A model generated the notes under the pieces. That model made no database searches. It was not told the DNA's origin and was given only the letters and a program-made list of their open reading frames with translations. Below, in pieces: positions 9,592-18,578 of a DNA stretch of 64,000 bases (position 1 is its first letter; each line of letters begins with the position of its first letter). The stretch is from Mycolicibacterium sp. TY81 (GTDB lineage: Bacteria > Actinomycetota > Actinomycetes > Mycobacteriales > Mycobacteriaceae), in contig NZ_AP023362.1 in NCBI RefSeq assembly GCF_018326285.1, forward strand, positions 6,014,001 to 6,078,000, read 5' to 3'. Position numbers and translations under genes: made by a program.

Positions 9592-10137
9592 TCAGTTGCA
9601 GTAGTTCCTGGTCGCTGCTGTGAGCGCCTGCTGGTAGAGCGGGTCGAGGTGCTGGTTCGTCACCACCTGTGCTCGGGCGGCGTCGAGTGCGGCGGCGCAG
9701 CCCGGGCCGTGCAGGACTCCTCGTTGTGCCGCCAGCTCCGCGACCATGGTGCGATTGAAACCGTCTATCGCAGTGCGTGATTCGGACAGATCAGGTGCCG
9801 TCGTGGGAGCCGTCGCCGGATCGAACTTCCATTGGCTGAACCGCAGATACTCGATGCCCTCGGTGGCGTGAATCTGGTCGGTGAACACCTGCTGCACGAA
9901 CACCGGGTCGGCGCCTGACGCGGTGGCCTGCGCGGCGACCGCTTTCAGCACCTGATCGACCCGCGCGGGATCCTCGATCGAGCCGCCCTTGAGCCACTTG
10001 ACCGCGGCCACCGCGTCGGCGGTCTGCAGCCGCTGGGCGGCGGCGTCGACCAACCGAAACAGCGGATCGTCGTCGGCGTAGGCGAGGGGCGCCGACGTCA
10101 TGCCCACGACGGCGACCAACAGGGCGGCGAGCTTCAT
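9592..10137 (-). CDS. Secreted chorismate mutase (AroQ-gamma type)
   Basis: A 181-residue protein with an N-terminal signal peptide (MKLAALLVAVVGMTSAPLAYA, cleavage after AYA). The mature domain strongly resembles M. tuberculosis Rv1885c, the exported all-helical chorismate mutase converting chorismate to prephenate. Shared landmarks are LVDAAAQRLQTADAVAAVKW, QVFTDQIHATEGIEYLRFSQWK, LSESRTAID and the final HLDPLYQQALTAATRNYC, with two Cys (GPGCAA and NYCN) as expected for an exported disulfide protein. GTG 10155 is an alternative start. It is convergent with the glycosylase (stops 2 bases apart) and divergent from an SDR gene. Confidence 0.9.
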   Translation of the reverse strand: MKLAALLVAVVGMTSAPLAYADDDPLFRLVDAAAQRLQTADAVAAVKWLKGGSIEDPARVDQVLKAVAAQATASGADPVFVQQVFTDQIHATEGIEYLRFSQWKFDPATAPTTAPDLSESRTAIDGFNRTMVAELAAQRGVLHGPGCAAALDAARAQVVTNQHLDPLYQQALTAATRNYCN

Positions 10138-14167: not shown

Positions 14168-14284
14168 CGCGAGCGGCCGTGTCTGTACGCAACACGCCGT
14201 GGTTGCTTGTACAAATGGGGCCGCTCACCGGCCGCGAGGGTGCGCAAAGCACACACCGAAGTCGGTGTGTCGCCGTACAGACAC
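14168..14284. repeat. Large palindromic element (class B), left part, interrupted by IS110
   Basis: It starts with the arm CGCGAGCGGCCGTGTCTGTAC (14168-14188; differs at one base from the intact 127-bp copy at 42782-42908 in the other orientation). It runs to GTACAGACAC (14275-14284), where the IS110 element begins. The missing end GGCCGCTCGCG appears only on the far side of the transposon (15664-15674). Confidence 0.8.
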
Positions 14285-14519
14285 TCAGTGTCATTCTCGA
14301 GTTGCCGCTGTTGCGGTGGTTGGGTTACTTCTCACCTGGTATTTGGCTCTTGCAAACACTGCCGCCTGCGGGCTGGCATTCGGCCGTTGTGCCGATACCA
14401 GGCGGGAAGGACCGACCGGCGTGACTTGATAGGAGCGTGGCACCGCCCCCACTGAGATGTGTCCTGCCGGCCGGCCCGACCTTCGCCTCATCCACCTCTG
14501 ATGAAAGAAGGCACCGTTC
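14285..14519 (+). ncRNA. Candidate bridge-RNA region of the IS110 element
   Basis: IS110-family elements encode a structured bridge RNA in the non-coding DNA next to the recombinase, which pairs with target and donor DNA. These 235 bases between the repeat junction and the transposase ATG have no convincing coding frame and lie at the right place and length. They contain stem-prone blocks such as ACTGCCGCCTGCGGGC. The assignment is by position and family; no fold was computed. Confidence 0.35.
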
Positions 14520-15585
14520 ATGGTCGTCGTTGGAACCGATGTCCACAAGCGCACCCACACCTTTGTTGCGGTCGACGAGGTCGGCCGCAAGCTCGGTGAG
14601 AAGGTCGTCAAAGCCACCACCATCGGACACCACAAGGCGTTGGCCTGGGCCCGCGAGCAGTTCGGGGAAGAATTGCTGTGGGGGTATCGAGGACTGTCGC
14701 AACCTGTCAGCTCGCCTGGAGCGCGATCTGCTCACCGCCGGCCAGTCCGTGGTACGGGTGGCCCCCAAACTCATGTCGCAGGCCCGGGCCTCGGCACGGA
14801 CCCGCGGTAAGTCCGATCCCATCGATGCGCTGGCCGTGGCTCAGGCTGTGCTGCGCAATCCTGATCTGCCCGTCGCCTCTCATGATCAGAGTTCGCGCGA
14901 ACTGAAACTATTGATTGATCGTCGTGAAGACCTTGTGGCACAACGCACTTCGACGATCAACCGGCTACGTCAACGGATCCACGAACTCGACCCCGCTGCT
15001 GAACCCAAACCGGGCTCACTACACCGCACCAAGGCCTGCACCGCGCTCGCAAAATGGCTCGACACCCAGCACGGACTGCTGGCCGAGTTGGCCCGCGATG
15101 AACTCGCCGACGTCATGCGCCTGACCGAGGCCATCAACACCCTGGCCGCACGCATCGGCGAACGCGTCCAAAAAATCGCCCCGACGCTACTGACGGTGCC
15201 CGGATGCGGTGAACTGACCGCCGCCAAGATCATCGCCGAAACCGCCGGCATCAGCCGCTTCCGCAGCGAAGCCGCCTTCAGCCGCCACAACGGCACCGCA
15301 CCGATCCCAGTCTGGTCGGGCAACACCGCCGGACGCGTCCGCTTGAACCGGTCCGGCAACCGCCAACTCAACGCGGCCTTACACCGCATCGCCATCACCC
15401 AGCTGCGCATCCCCGGCAGCGCCGGCCAGCAGTACTACCGCGGTCGCATCGCCGACGGCAAGGCCACCAAAGAAGCCCTACGATGCCTCAAACGCCACCT
15501 CAGCCGAACCGTCTACCGCAGCCTCCACACCGACCTGCACCTCAACCGATCACACCAAAAACCCGAAACAGCACTCGCTGCTTGA
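14520..15585 (+). pseudogene. IS110-family transposase, single-base frameshift
   Basis: A roughly 354-residue DEDD recombinase split by a frameshift. The first frame starts at the ATG 14520 (MVVVGTDVHKRTHTFVAVDE, first catalytic Asp) and runs to EELLWG. The second frame continues as IEDCRNLSARLERDLL and GKSDPIDALAVAQAV, then the C-terminal Transposase_20 domain with LLTVPGCGELTAAKI and FSRHNGTAPIPVWSG. The break is at five consecutive G (14680-14684): with four, the protein reads LLWGIEDCRN without interruption. It may be a disabling insertion, a slippery site or a sequencing error. Confidence 0.85.
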
Positions 15586-15597
15586 CATAGGAGCAAT

Positions 15598-15674
15598 GGC
15601 CGCTCACCAGGCGCCAACGTGCGCAAAGCACACACCGAAGTCGGTGTGTCGCCGTACAGACACGGCCGCTCGCG
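15598..15674. repeat. Large palindromic element (class B), right part after IS110
   Basis: It begins with GGCCGCTCACC and repeats, with a few differences, the right half of the left part (compare 14219-14284). It then completes the palindrome with GTACAGACAC and GGCCGCTCGCG (15654-15674). About 66 bases are thus present on both sides of the transposon. Confidence 0.75.
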
Positions 15675-15712
15675 GGAAGTTTGGTGCGGGAAGTTTGGTC
15701 AGTGAGCGGAGG

Positions 15713-16006
15713 TCAGTGGCCGAGGCGGCCGCGGCCGAGACGCAGCAGCAGCATGGCGAGGTCTTTGCCCTCGGGGCCCAGCTCGCTGTAGCGCTCGATG
15801 ACCTTCATCTCGCGGCTGTGCACCAGCCGGGTGCCGCCGGAGGCCATGCGGGCCTTGCCGATCATCTTGGAGACCTCGGTGCGACGGGCGACGGCCGCCA
15901 GGATGGTGGCGTCCAGCTCGTCGATCTCCAGGCGGAGCTCGTCGATGTTGGGGAGTTCAGTTTCGGTCGACATGGTGTCCTCGCTGTTGGTGGATTCTGG
16001 TGTCAT
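15713..16006 (-). CDS. Intracellular chorismate mutase (AroQ type)
   Basis: A 97-residue all-helical chorismate mutase converting chorismate to prephenate for Phe and Tyr synthesis. It is nearly identical in its C-terminal half to M. tuberculosis Rv0948c (RMASGGTRLVHSREMKVIERYSEL and LLLRLGRGRLGH, in shorter pieces). The LGRGRLGH tail is the part that in mycobacteria contacts and is activated by DAHP synthase. A start at 15973 has a better GAGGA ribosome site. Upstream on its transcript lie a short FFY-rich reading frame and hairpins that look like an attenuator. The IS110 element lies downstream. Confidence 0.93.
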   Translation of the reverse strand: MTPESTNSEDTMSTETELPNIDELRLEIDELDATILAAVARRTEVSKMIGKARMASGGTRLVHSREMKVIERYSELGPEGKDLAMLLLRLGRGRLGH

Positions 16007-16020
16007 CCGAATTCAGGCCT

Positions 16021-16136
16021 CACACAACAAACGAGCCCCGGATCCGGATGCGGACCACGGGGCTGAAGGGAAGCAGCTAAACCCCGGGTACCGGCGTCCG
16101 GTACCCGTAGAAAAATCGCTGCTGCGCATTGAGCAC
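16021..16136 (-). promoter_or_regulatory. Putative Phe/Tyr attenuator (leader peptide and hairpins) for chorismate mutase
   Basis: Reading the minus strand, a GTG at 16136 opens a 19-codon frame ending at 16077: (V/M)LNAQQRFFYGYRTPVPGV. It contains Phe-Phe-Tyr-Gly-Tyr. The Tyr codons overlap a perfect hairpin CGGGTACCGG-acg-CCGGTACCCG (16107-16085). Next comes the hairpin AGCCCCG...CGGGGCT (16064-16034), followed by CGTTTGTTGTGT. CGGGG (16086-16082) can alternatively pair with CCCCG of the second hairpin. A CACACT -10-like hexamer sits correctly for leaderless initiation at the GTG. The elements are seen directly; attenuation is inferred. Confidence 0.55.
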
Positions 16137-16238
16137 GTTCCGAGTGTGCCATCCCGGCCGGTGCCAGCGCAAAGAGGCGACCGAAGCGACCGGGGAAATG
16201 CGTGGCTTGTCGCACCCCGGCGGTAAGTTTGAGCTGAT

Positions 16239-18578
16239 ATGACGAGCACAGCCCCCGACATCGATCAGCTTCTGGACGGCCTCAACCCGCAGCAGCGTGC
16301 AGCGGTTCTGCACGAGGGTTCGCCGCTGCTGATCGTGGCCGGCGCCGGCTCGGGCAAAACCGCGGTGCTGACCCGGCGCATCGCCTACCTGCTGGCCAAC
16401 CGCGACGTCGGCGTCGGCCAGATCCTGGCCATCACGTTCACCAACAAGGCCGCCGCCGAGATGCGTGAGCGCGTCGTCCAGTTGATCGGCCCCCGCGCCA
16501 AGTCCATGTGGGTGTCGACGTTCCACTCCACCTGCGTCCGCATCCTCCGGAACCAGGCCTCGCTGCTCCCGGGGCTCAACTCCAACTTCTCCATCTACGA
16601 CGCCGACGACTCGCGCCGGTTGTTGATGATGGTGGGCAAGGACCTGGGCCTCGACGTCAAGCGGTACTCGCCGCGCATGCTCGCGACCGCGATCTCGAAC
16701 CTGAAGAACGAACTGATCGACCCGCTGCAGGCGGCGTCGGAGGCGTCGGAGGCCGACGAGGACCTGCCGAAGATCGTCGCCGAGGTCTACGGCGAATACC
16801 AGCGCCGGCTGCGGGCCGCGAACGCCATGGACTTCGACGACCTGATCGGCGAGACGGTCGCTGTGCTGCAGAGCTTTCCGCAGATCGCGCAGTACTACCG
16901 GCGGCGCTTCCGGCACATCCTGGTCGACGAGTACCAGGACACCAACCACGCCCAGTACGTGCTGGTGCGCGAGCTCGTCGGGCACCACGCGCCCGAAGGC
17001 GCCGATGACGTCCCGCCCGCCGAACTGTGCGTCGTGGGTGACGCCGACCAGTCCATCTACGCGTTCCGCGGCGCGACGATCCGCAACATCGAGGATTTCG
17101 AGCGCGACTTCCCGAATGCGAAAACCATTCTGCTGGAACAGAATTACCGTTCCACGCAGAACATCCTGTCGGCCGCCAACGGGGTCATCAGCCGCAACGC
17201 CGGACGCCGCGACAAGAAGCTGTGGACCGACGCCGGCGAGGGCGAGCTGATCGTCGGCTACGTTGCCGACAACGAACACGACGAGGCCCGGTTCATCGCC
17301 GAGGAGATCGACACGCTGACCACCAAGGGCAGCGGTATCGACACCAAGTACAGCTATGGCGACATCGCGGTGTTCTACCGCACCAACAACTCGTCGCGGT
17401 CCGTGGAGGACATCTTCATCCGGGCCGGCATCCCGTACAAAGTCGTCGGGGGCATGCGCTTCTACGAGCGCAAGGAGATTCGCGACATCGTCGCGTACCT
17501 GCGGGTGCTGGACAACCCGGGCGACGCGGTGAGCCTGCGGCGCATCCTCAACACCCCCCGCCGCGGCATCGGTGACCGCGCCGAAGCCTGCGTGGCGGTG
17601 TACGCGGAGAACACCGGCGCCAGCTTCAGTGACGCGCTGCAGGCAGCCGCCGAGGGCCGGGTGCCGATGCTGAACTCCCGCTCGGAGAAGGCGATCGCCA
17701 GTTTCGTCGAGCTCATGGACAGCCTGCGCGGCGGGCTCGACGGCGAGCTGGGTGACCTGGTCGAGACGGTGCTGGACCGCACGGGCTACCGCCGCGAGCT
17801 GGAAGCGTCCAGCGACCCGCAGGACCAGGCGCGGCTCGACAACCTGAACGAATTGGTCAGCGTCGCACACGAATTCAGCACCGACCTGGCCAACGCGCAG
17901 GCTTTGCAGGAAGAGGAACTGGACGAGGACGTCCCCGACACCGGAGCGCTGGCCGCGTTCCTGGAACGGGTCTCGCTGGTGGCGGACGCCGACGAAATCC
18001 CCGAGGACGGCGACGGCGTCGTCACGATGATGACGCTGCACACCGCCAAAGGCCTCGAATTCCCCGTGGTTTTCGTGACCGGCTGGGAAGACGGCATGTT
18101 CCCGCACATGCGCGCCCTCGGCGACCCGACCGAACTGTCCGAGGAACGCCGGCTGGCGTACGTCGGCATCACCCGGGCCCGCCAGCGGCTGTACCTCAGC
18201 CGCGCCAAGGTGCGCTCGTCGTGGGGGCAGCCCATGCTCAACCCGGAATCGCGCTTTCTGCAGGAGATTCCGCAGGAGCTGATCGACTGGCGTCGCGTCG
18301 AGCCGCCACCATCGCTGTCGGCGCCGCGGGGTTACGGGTCCGGGGGATCGGGTGGTGGTCTCGGTGGTGGACGGCCGTCGCCCATGCGGCCGGCGCCGAA
18401 CCGCAACAAGCCGCTGGTGGTGCTCTCACCGGGTGACCGTGTCACGCACGACAAGTACGGCCTGGGCCGCGTCGAAGAGGTCAGTGGTGTCGGCGAATCG
18501 GCCATGTCGCTCATCGACTTCGGCAGCTCCGGCCGGGTCAAACTGATGCACAACCACGCTCCGGTACAGAAGCTTTAG
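16239..18578 (+). CDS. uvrD1: ATP-dependent DNA helicase UvrD1/PcrA
   Basis: A 779-residue superfamily 1A 3'-5' helicase for nucleotide-excision and double-strand-break repair, matching Rv0949. Motifs in order: LNPQQRAAVLHEG (Q motif), GAGSGKTAVLTRRIAYL (Walker A), ITFTNKAAAEM, VDEYQDTNHAQY (Walker B), GDADQSIYAFRGA, QNYRSTQNIL, MTLHTAKGLEFPVVF and EERRLAYVGITRA. The C-terminus (PGDRVTHDKYGLGRVEEVSG...) is the Tudor-like module found in PcrA/UvrD1, which binds RNA polymerase and, in mycobacteria, the Ku region. A Gly/Ser-rich linker precedes it. It is divergent from chorismate mutase. Confidence 0.96.
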   Translation: MTSTAPDIDQLLDGLNPQQRAAVLHEGSPLLIVAGAGSGKTAVLTRRIAYLLANRDVGVGQILAITFTNKAAAEMRERVVQLIGPRAKSMWVSTFHSTCVRILRNQASLLPGLNSNFSIYDADDSRRLLMMVGKDLGLDVKRYSPRMLATAISNLKNELIDPLQAASEASEADEDLPKIVAEVYGEYQRRLRAANAMDFDDLIGETVAVLQSFPQIAQYYRRRFRHILVDEYQDTNHAQYVLVRELVGHHAPEGADDVPPAELCVVGDADQSIYAFRGATIRNIEDFERDFPNAKTILLEQNYRSTQNILSAANGVISRNAGRRDKKLWTDAGEGELIVGYVADNEHDEARFIAEEIDTLTTKGSGIDTKYSYGDIAVFYRTNNSSRSVEDIFIRAGIPYKVVGGMRFYERKEIRDIVAYLRVLDNPGDAVSLRRILNTPRRGIGDRAEACVAVYAENTGASFSDALQAAAEGRVPMLNSRSEKAIASFVELMDSLRGGLDGELGDLVETVLDRTGYRRELEASSDPQDQARLDNLNELVSVAHEFSTDLANAQALQEEELDEDVPDTGALAAFLERVSLVADADEIPEDGDGVVTMMTLHTAKGLEFPVVFVTGWEDGMFPHMRALGDPTELSEERRLAYVGITRARQRLYLSRAKVRSSWGQPMLNPESRFLQEIPQELIDWRRVEPPPSLSAPRGYGSGGSGGGLGGGRPSPMRPAPNRNKPLVVLSPGDRVTHDKYGLGRVEEVSGVGESAMSLIDFGSSGRVKLMHNHAPVQKL

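Follow-up and report, generated by a model that had tools for sequence, protein, structure and literature searches.

What controls the production of chorismate mutase (CM), the enzyme at the branch from chorismate to phenylalanine (Phe) and tyrosine (Tyr), in mycobacteria? The question is raised by one locus of Mycolicibacterium sp. TY81 (order Mycobacteriales, family Mycobacteriaceae), located in a stretch of 64,000 nucleotides (nt) of its 6.47 Mb genome (contig NZ_AP023362.1, positions 6,014,001 to 6,078,000), hereafter called the window. There, on the minus strand, a gene matching the CM profile PF01817 (15713..15973, start ATG at 15973; 41.3 bits against a cut-off of 27) is preceded by a leader that a preliminary description, made from the DNA letters alone, had read as a Phe/Tyr attenuator. 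This reading is supported by conserved aromatic codons, by conserved hairpins and by computed folding alternatives. Judging from these sequence comparisons, we consider it very probable that the leader is a classical ribosome-mediated Phe/Tyr transcription attenuator, of the leaderless type, that controls the CM gene.

Architecture and predicted operation of the leader

The start of a short upstream open reading frame (uORF), its sensor codons and a putative terminator all lie within ~115 nt; coordinates refer to the minus strand of the window. The uORF comprises 19 codons plus TAG (16077..16136; VLNAQQRFFYGYRTPVPGV), runs from GTG at 16136-16134 to TAG at 16079-16077, and encodes V/M-L-N-A-Q-Q-R-F-F-Y-G-Y-R-T-P-V-P-G-V, the core of which is conserved. 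Sequence and comparison identify Phe-Phe-Tyr-Gly-Tyr (TTT TTC TAC GGG TAC, 16101..16115) as the putative sensor codons, with the Phe pair at 16115-16110 and the Tyr codons at 16109-16107 and 16103-16101. As first described, this run sits at the start of a perfect 10-base-pair hairpin, here called 1:2 (16085..16107; region 1 at 16107-16098, region 2 at 16094-16085), which overlaps uORF codons 10-18. The second hairpin reported before the CM gene is likewise present: hairpin 3:4 (16034..16064) has a predicted energy of -22.9 kcal/mol, carries 5 U among the 8 nt directly 3' of it, and runs into the U-rich tail CGTTTGTTGTGT (16022..16033). The earlier suggestion that CGGGG at the end of the frame could pair with CCCCG of the second hairpin is borne out in the computed fold, wherein masked folding yields an alternative 2:3 pairing (16051..16094), a candidate antiterminator that joins region 2 and stop-proximal bases to region 3.

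Upstream of the GTG codon lie a -10 region, TGGCACACT (16143..16152; hexamer CACACT at 16148-16143), and a -35-like TTTGCG (16173-16168). A simple promoter and terminator scan called neither element at the leader. Folding of the window's leader gives z = -3.44, with none of 200 dinucleotide shuffles equally stable.

From the anatomy, conservation and folding alternatives computed here, we infer a start site, translation, termination and amino-acid response of the following kind. Transcription would start at or next to GTG 16136, the 19-codon frame would be translated without a Shine-Dalgarno sequence, and the leader would thereby sense charged tRNA-Phe and tRNA-Tyr. When Phe or Tyr is scarce, the ribosome would stall on the F-F-Y codons and cover region 1, leaving region 2 free to pair with region 3; hairpin 3:4 would then not form in time, and RNA polymerase would enter the CM gene. 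When both amino acids are plentiful, the ribosome would reach the stop codon and cover region 2, region 3 would pair with region 4, and transcription would end in the U-rich tail. Without any translation, the expectation for many species is that hairpin 1:2 forms and the terminator prevails, an outcome that is uncertain for the window.

Conservation of the uORF and its start among mycobacteria

We use 'genus' for the group of species named Mycobacterium, Mycolicibacterium, Mycolicibacter and Mycobacteroides, where leader matches fall. CM was found in 195 of 198 genus genomes, the window's own included. We took 130 genus CM loci (L003-L132) and read their upstream DNA, from which a set of 110 leaders was formed with the -10 pattern as the selection criterion; left out were 18 loci without a recognisable leader or promoter, L051 without a promoter match, and L004, which is the window itself. 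A covariance model of the leader (model R1) matches 173 of the 198 genus genomes at E <= 1e-5, and 163 of 185 among good assemblies. The window's genome contains one strong match, and its other matches (E 4.9e-4 and worse) were rejected.

When the encoded peptides are aligned, 105 of the 111 genus leaders (the 110 plus the window) fit the core R-F-F-Y-G-Y-R-P-A-V-P-V, the remaining 6 being below the motif score. Codon counts taken from this peptide alignment answer the earlier call to look for conserved aromatic codons: the first Phe position holds Phe in 102 of the 105, the second holds Phe in 83 and Tyr in 3, and the two Tyr positions hold Tyr in 91 and 94. A separate observation concerns L085, L088, L098 and L116 (L087 and L094 are alike), which have a longer leader peptide and carry GAACTTTTT after the second hairpin.

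In mycobacteria, leaderless transcripts have their start codon at the 5' end, which gives a short, fixed distance between the -10 box and that codon. Such spacing is seen here. It could be measured in 99 of the 111 genus leaders (L012 has no RTG in place, and the hairpin pattern was unmatched in 11), and with 5 to 9 nt allowed it comes to 6 nt in 75 leaders and to 7 nt in the other 24; the frame stays open through the first hairpin in 98 of the 99. The -10 pattern RTGKCAVACY itself occurs at 117 of the 130 genus CM loci, and at 2 further loci after their orientation is reversed. Since none of the 99 measured leaders departs from a spacing of 6-7 nt, the uORF is probably translated leaderless. 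The same spacing places the likely transcription start at or just before 16136 and not downstream of 16077, as an attenuator of the kind first described implies. Outside the genus, 26 of 32 loci have a start codon 6 or 7 nt behind a looser -10-like box (5 to 8 allowed) and a frame open to the aromatic run; this count excludes the near copies L140, L173 and L323 and the short pieces L223 and L259.

The codons themselves are also uneven in use. Of the 105 aligned genus leaders, 98 have TTT as their first Phe codon and 99 have CGA for the Arg just before it, whereas three sample genes of the window hold 3 TTT versus 48 TTC codons and no CGA among 118 Arg codons. The sensor region thus draws on codons seldom found in those genes, and the rare CGA and TTT pair (window 16118-16113) possibly tunes ribosome speed.

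Conserved hairpins

Base pairing was scored in alignment A2, defined by hand and drawn from 84 non-redundant segments, of which 54 were kept (two after trimming). In the other 30, including L030, L034 and L044, the ends were misplaced or a hairpin was deleted or not located, and their omission flatters the pairing percentages. Across these 54 diverse sequences, 97.6% of cells are paired in hairpin 1:2 and 89.5% in hairpin 3:4 (93.1% together), and 19 cells carry double changes, so that the expectation of conserved hairpins with compensatory changes holds up. None of 500 shuffles is as high on either pairing or double changes, relatedness being uncontrolled, and pairing falls to 27-49% when partners are slid. 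Double changes occur at 4 of the 14 pairs of hairpin 3:4. In hairpin 1:2, one pair changes from G-C to A-U in 3 of the 54 sequences, through a silent GGG to GGA change and a CCC to TCC change that replaces Pro with Ser; since the pair is kept at the cost of the residue, the peptide here gave way to the RNA pairing.

The 2:3 pairing is found in 88.5% of cells, versus 35-57% for slides. As judged by eye, relatives use a different register, in which CGUGG pairs with CCACG; compensated versions are CGUGA/UCACG in L217 and L236 and CGCGG/CCGCG in L162. Alignment A1, which joined the window to 85 of the 110 leaders (86 sequences), gave a poor RNAalifold consensus, with 16 pairs and an implausible long-range helix, and this consensus was discarded.

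A computed switch between two pairings

We folded the RNA that a ribosome would leave free, as far as the end of region 3, letting the ribosome cover 12 nt counted from its A-site codon. Folding was applied to the 180 sequences that matched the hairpin pattern among 252 from the genus, the family, the named loci described below and the window; the other 72, with or without a leader, were left unfolded, and the set is mostly mycobacterial. A terminator-like hairpin is present in 179 of the 180 (mean -23.7 kcal/mol), and in 144 of these 179 it sits 12-16 nt after the stop codon.

With the A site at either Phe codon, region 3 is paired upstream with a mean probability of 0.73, and at the first Tyr codon with 0.75, exceeding 0.5 in 166 of the 179 leaders. 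With the ribosome at the stop codon the mean falls to 0.05 (above 0.5 in 8 of 179), and with no ribosome it is 0.42 (above 0.5 in 68 of 179). The same behavior appears at 16 loci from elsewhere in the order, 15 of them absent from A2, where upstream pairing of region 3 is 0.60-0.75 at the first Tyr codon and 0.00-0.37 at the stop; L323, a copy of L322, was left out of these 16, and L337 was not included. Shuffling the segment from the stop to region 3 lowers the upstream pairing from 0.67 to 0.47, and the window has z = -2.4. In this model, the leader thus has two mutually exclusive pairings, between which the position of the ribosome is predicted to choose.

Distribution beyond the genus

When named genomes were scanned with a sequence pattern, matches outside mycobacteria fell in Rhodococcus, Pseudonocardia, Actinomycetospora and one Nakamurella metagenome-assembled genome (MAG). 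The scan returned at least 119 stretches, of which 80 were listed, and its pattern contains the peptide core, so that conservation of the core among them holds by construction. Sixteen named loci (Rhodococcus, Pseudonocardia, Actinomycetospora, Nakamurella and MAGs) were inspected: 14 run into CM, and the other two are contig pieces that end earlier.

In a sample of the order, 108 of 150 genomes have a match to model R1 at E <= 1e-3, spread over 43 of the 55 genera; this is an upper figure, in which weaker matches are unchecked and at least 14 of the 150 genomes belong to the genus itself. Seventeen strong order loci from outside the genus were fetched (L319, L320, L322-L336), and at every one of them CM lies behind the leader; L322 and L323 look identical, and L322 equals L205 of A2. 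The leader also precedes CM at L337, a 44-bit match from another order. A class sample gave matches in 28 of 197 genomes at E <= 1e-4, 9 of them from the genus, and a phylum sample in 6 of 149 at E <= 1e-5, 4 of them from the genus. No CM was found near the class-sample matches except at L337, with a CM pattern that can miss CMs; it was likewise negative at the weak matches outside the order (L338-L355, L357), and at L327 and L337 it overlooked true CMs, which reading by hand revealed.

The aromatic run outside the genus varies within F and Y, as FFY, FYY or FYF (e.g. EFYFGYR, QFYYGYR), and single loci have other runs, such as FSY. Genomes of one family, which we guess to be Pseudonocardiaceae-like, keep FFY and have Asn or Ile in place of the second Tyr. 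The comparisons indicate that a leader with a uORF and competing hairpins is widely though not evenly conserved.

Some mycobacteria have CM without the leader. At L009, L013, L014, L015, L059 and L063, CM's own RTG stands 6 nt behind the -10 box of the same promoter, a spacing that supports the start site proposed for the uORF. At L026, L028, L072, L075, L080, L081, L091, L105 and L120, the start codon of CM is a GTG near an altered promoter. To judge from these loci, CM survives excision of the leader, which is how a regulatory insert would be expected to behave.

Relation to known leaders

Rfam contains families of amino-acid leaders, including a gammaproteobacterial Phe leader. Among 10 matches at E <= 10 in a scan of window positions 15600-16500, all at chance level, none was to an amino-acid leader family. 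The kind of regulation proposed here is already known from pheL-pheA and aroR-aroF, and its apparent member at CM would be new. In the open-licence literature of PubMed Central (PMC), as far as its accessible text extends, we found no attenuator described before chorismate mutase in actinobacteria.

The closest likeness by description, the sequences being uncompared, is the aroR-aroF attenuator of Corynebacterium glutamicum (Neshat 2014, via excerpts in PMC11802643 and PMC4046766), in which a leader peptide with Phe-Tyr-Phe serves ribosome-mediated transcription attenuation of an aromatic pathway in a related actinobacterium. That system, as excerpted in PMC11802643, controls DAHP synthase and responds to Phe but not Tyr, whereas the gene here is chorismate mutase and not the DAHP synthase gene aroF. 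Escherichia coli pheL-pheA, in the account given in PMC11802643, pairs a Phe-sensing leader and classical attenuation with a gene having chorismate mutase activity, although the product of pheA is a CM-prephenate dehydratase. Mycobacterial poly-Cys uORFs (Canestrari 2020, via passages in PMC13236596 and PMC9094748) resemble the present uORF in being short and located before a biosynthetic gene, and they are leaderless, as the present one probably is, but they have Cys codons and are described in the available text of PMC13236596 as acting by translation attenuation; mycobacterial cys leaders lack conserved terminator hairpins according to the accessible portion of Seliverstov 2005 (PMC1262725). 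The Mycobacterium tuberculosis ilvB1 leader, for which the accessible part of PMC13236596 reports a test of transcription attenuation, has a uORF with regulatory codons and a terminator/antiterminator arrangement like the one proposed here, but serves branched-chain amino acids.

Other surveys touch neighbouring ground. The available text of Seliverstov 2005 treats trp, cys, ilv and leu leaders and does not contain 'chorismate'. That of PMC13236596 contains neither this word nor Rv0948c, and further predicted loci, which may include CM, stand in its figures. 'Chorismate' is also absent from the accessible texts of PMC4633059 and PMC9094748, on Cys uORFs, and of PMC2965389, a survey of premature terminators, as is 'leader' from that of PMC6437058, on Rv0948c mutants. 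A Streptomyces lividans survey (PMC8079986) gives, in its accessible part, eight leaders, several of them leaderless and none for Phe or Tyr.

Weighing the proposed attenuator against other explanations

Several observations weigh against attenuation by a Phe/Tyr-sensing leader. Even without a ribosome, the window already pairs region 3 upstream at 0.81, and six of the order loci do likewise at 0.68-0.77; termination in the absence of translation is therefore not predicted for these. For the full-length RNA at equilibrium, the terminator is preferred whatever the state (mean probability 0.88-0.92), and therefore the switching must be kinetic. The fold from the stop to region 3 beats shuffles modestly (mean z -1.47 over 29 non-redundant leaders, 278 of 1740 shuffles being equally stable), and single z values at the order loci range from +0.7 to -2.7. 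Double changes fall at six pairs, and 22 of 500 shuffles show as many; pair types are no more numerous than under shuffling (247 of 500 match the native number); and covariation in 2:3 is weak, its double-changed cells numbering two (matched by 11 of 500 shuffles) and the +2 and +3 slides scoring higher. The U tail is interrupted in the window and in many other mycobacteria, with 4 U in 8 nt in 84 of 179 leaders and 2 or fewer in 24, 16 of which have none, partly through misplaced hairpins. Finally, the leader is patchy in the organism's own family outside the genus, being present, as judged by eye, at 6 (L140, L157, L162, L167, L173, L180) of the 40 CM loci read (L140-L147, L149-L180), and the few family genomes in the order sample gave no strong R1 match (best 4.9e-7).

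The weak U tail also favours an explanation that we regard as unlikely, in which the uORF and hairpins act on CM translation or on Rho access and not through an intrinsic terminator, stalling being what frees the CM ribosome-binding site or blocks Rho. Here the precedent of the M. smegmatis Cys leaders, which act by translation attenuation according to the available text of PMC13236596, is joined by a conserved post-terminator helix (TTGTTG/CAACAG in the window, 15984..16030), whose 3' arm adjoins the CM Shine-Dalgarno sequence and which takes the forms TTGTGTG/CACACAA or CTGTTG/CAACAG in the genus. Over 86 genus loci, native arms pair better than swapped ones (-10.1 versus -9.15 kcal/mol; 0 of 200 permutations as good, relatedness uncontrolled), with G-type 5' arms pairing equally well with C-type 3' arms. 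However, this helix was examined in the genus set only and overlaps neither region 2 nor region 3, and in relatives the same hairpin is directly followed by uninterrupted U runs (TTTTTT in L173/L236 and in L320, TTTTT in L331, TTTT in L205). The terminator search at the order loci imposed limits on length and U tail, and a U-containing tail is true there by construction.

We give very little credence to a conserved 5' untranslated region with a stabilising hairpin and no amino-acid regulation. Strong hairpins alone could stabilise an RNA, and lineages lacking the leader do exist, but this would leave unexplained the in-frame aromatic codons, the narrowly set start codon and the hairpin lying 12-16 nt behind the stop codon in most leaders. 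Least credible of all is that the conserved peptide is itself functional, as a small protein with incidental hairpins. FFYGYR.PVPV is indeed conserved in amino acids over several families, and yet Pro yields to Ser where pairing is kept, the change of Tyr to Asn or Ile comes with Val to Ala (by eye; one pair regained, one lost), the N-terminal part varies in length and sequence, and some lineages have lost the leader.

Neighbouring features

An upstream in-frame ATG at 16006 precedes the CM start at 15973 and shows a motif, CGGATGAGACC, in relatives; it is a possible alternative CM start. Of 78 genus loci that match the pattern, 52 have the upstream ATG in frame with CM, a count that is rough both ways, some anchors being off and some matches not being the CGGATGAGACC motif. 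The leader lies between CM and a divergent gene at 16239 that presumably encodes a UvrD/PcrA-type helicase. A second PF01817 match (9862-10053, minus strand, 43.6 bits) lies 6 kb from the CM gene within an open frame of 537 amino acids. Directly behind CM is a transposase-like gene (14437-15585, plus strand), which we take to be IS110-like; both its flanks carry a similar stretch, the frames near 14199-14429 and 15596 sharing KHTPKSVCRRTDT, and by this likeness the gene may stand between direct repeats.

Implications

A further reading, to which we give somewhat less than even odds, is that a leaderless Phe/Tyr attenuator already stood at CM in the ancestor of the order, as strong matches in several families and one locus of another order might suggest. 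It would have been kept with the gene at a fixed geometry of start codon, FFY and hairpins, often lost in the organism's own family outside the genus, and cut out in some mycobacteria to leave CM leaderless on the same promoter, while the helix at the Mycobacterium ribosome-binding site would add a layer of control.

M. tuberculosis CM is weak alone and >100-fold more efficient in complex with DAHP synthase, according to the accessible text of PMC4281200. Since most of the mycobacteria sampled, and some of their distant relatives, share the conserved leader, CM is very likely switched on in these bacteria when Phe or Tyr runs short. If an attenuator does operate over much of the order, the amount of CM, besides its activity, would follow the supply of these amino acids. 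The leader would also offer a natural setting in which to test leaderless translation that is coupled with transcription, with the lineages that lack it as ready comparisons.
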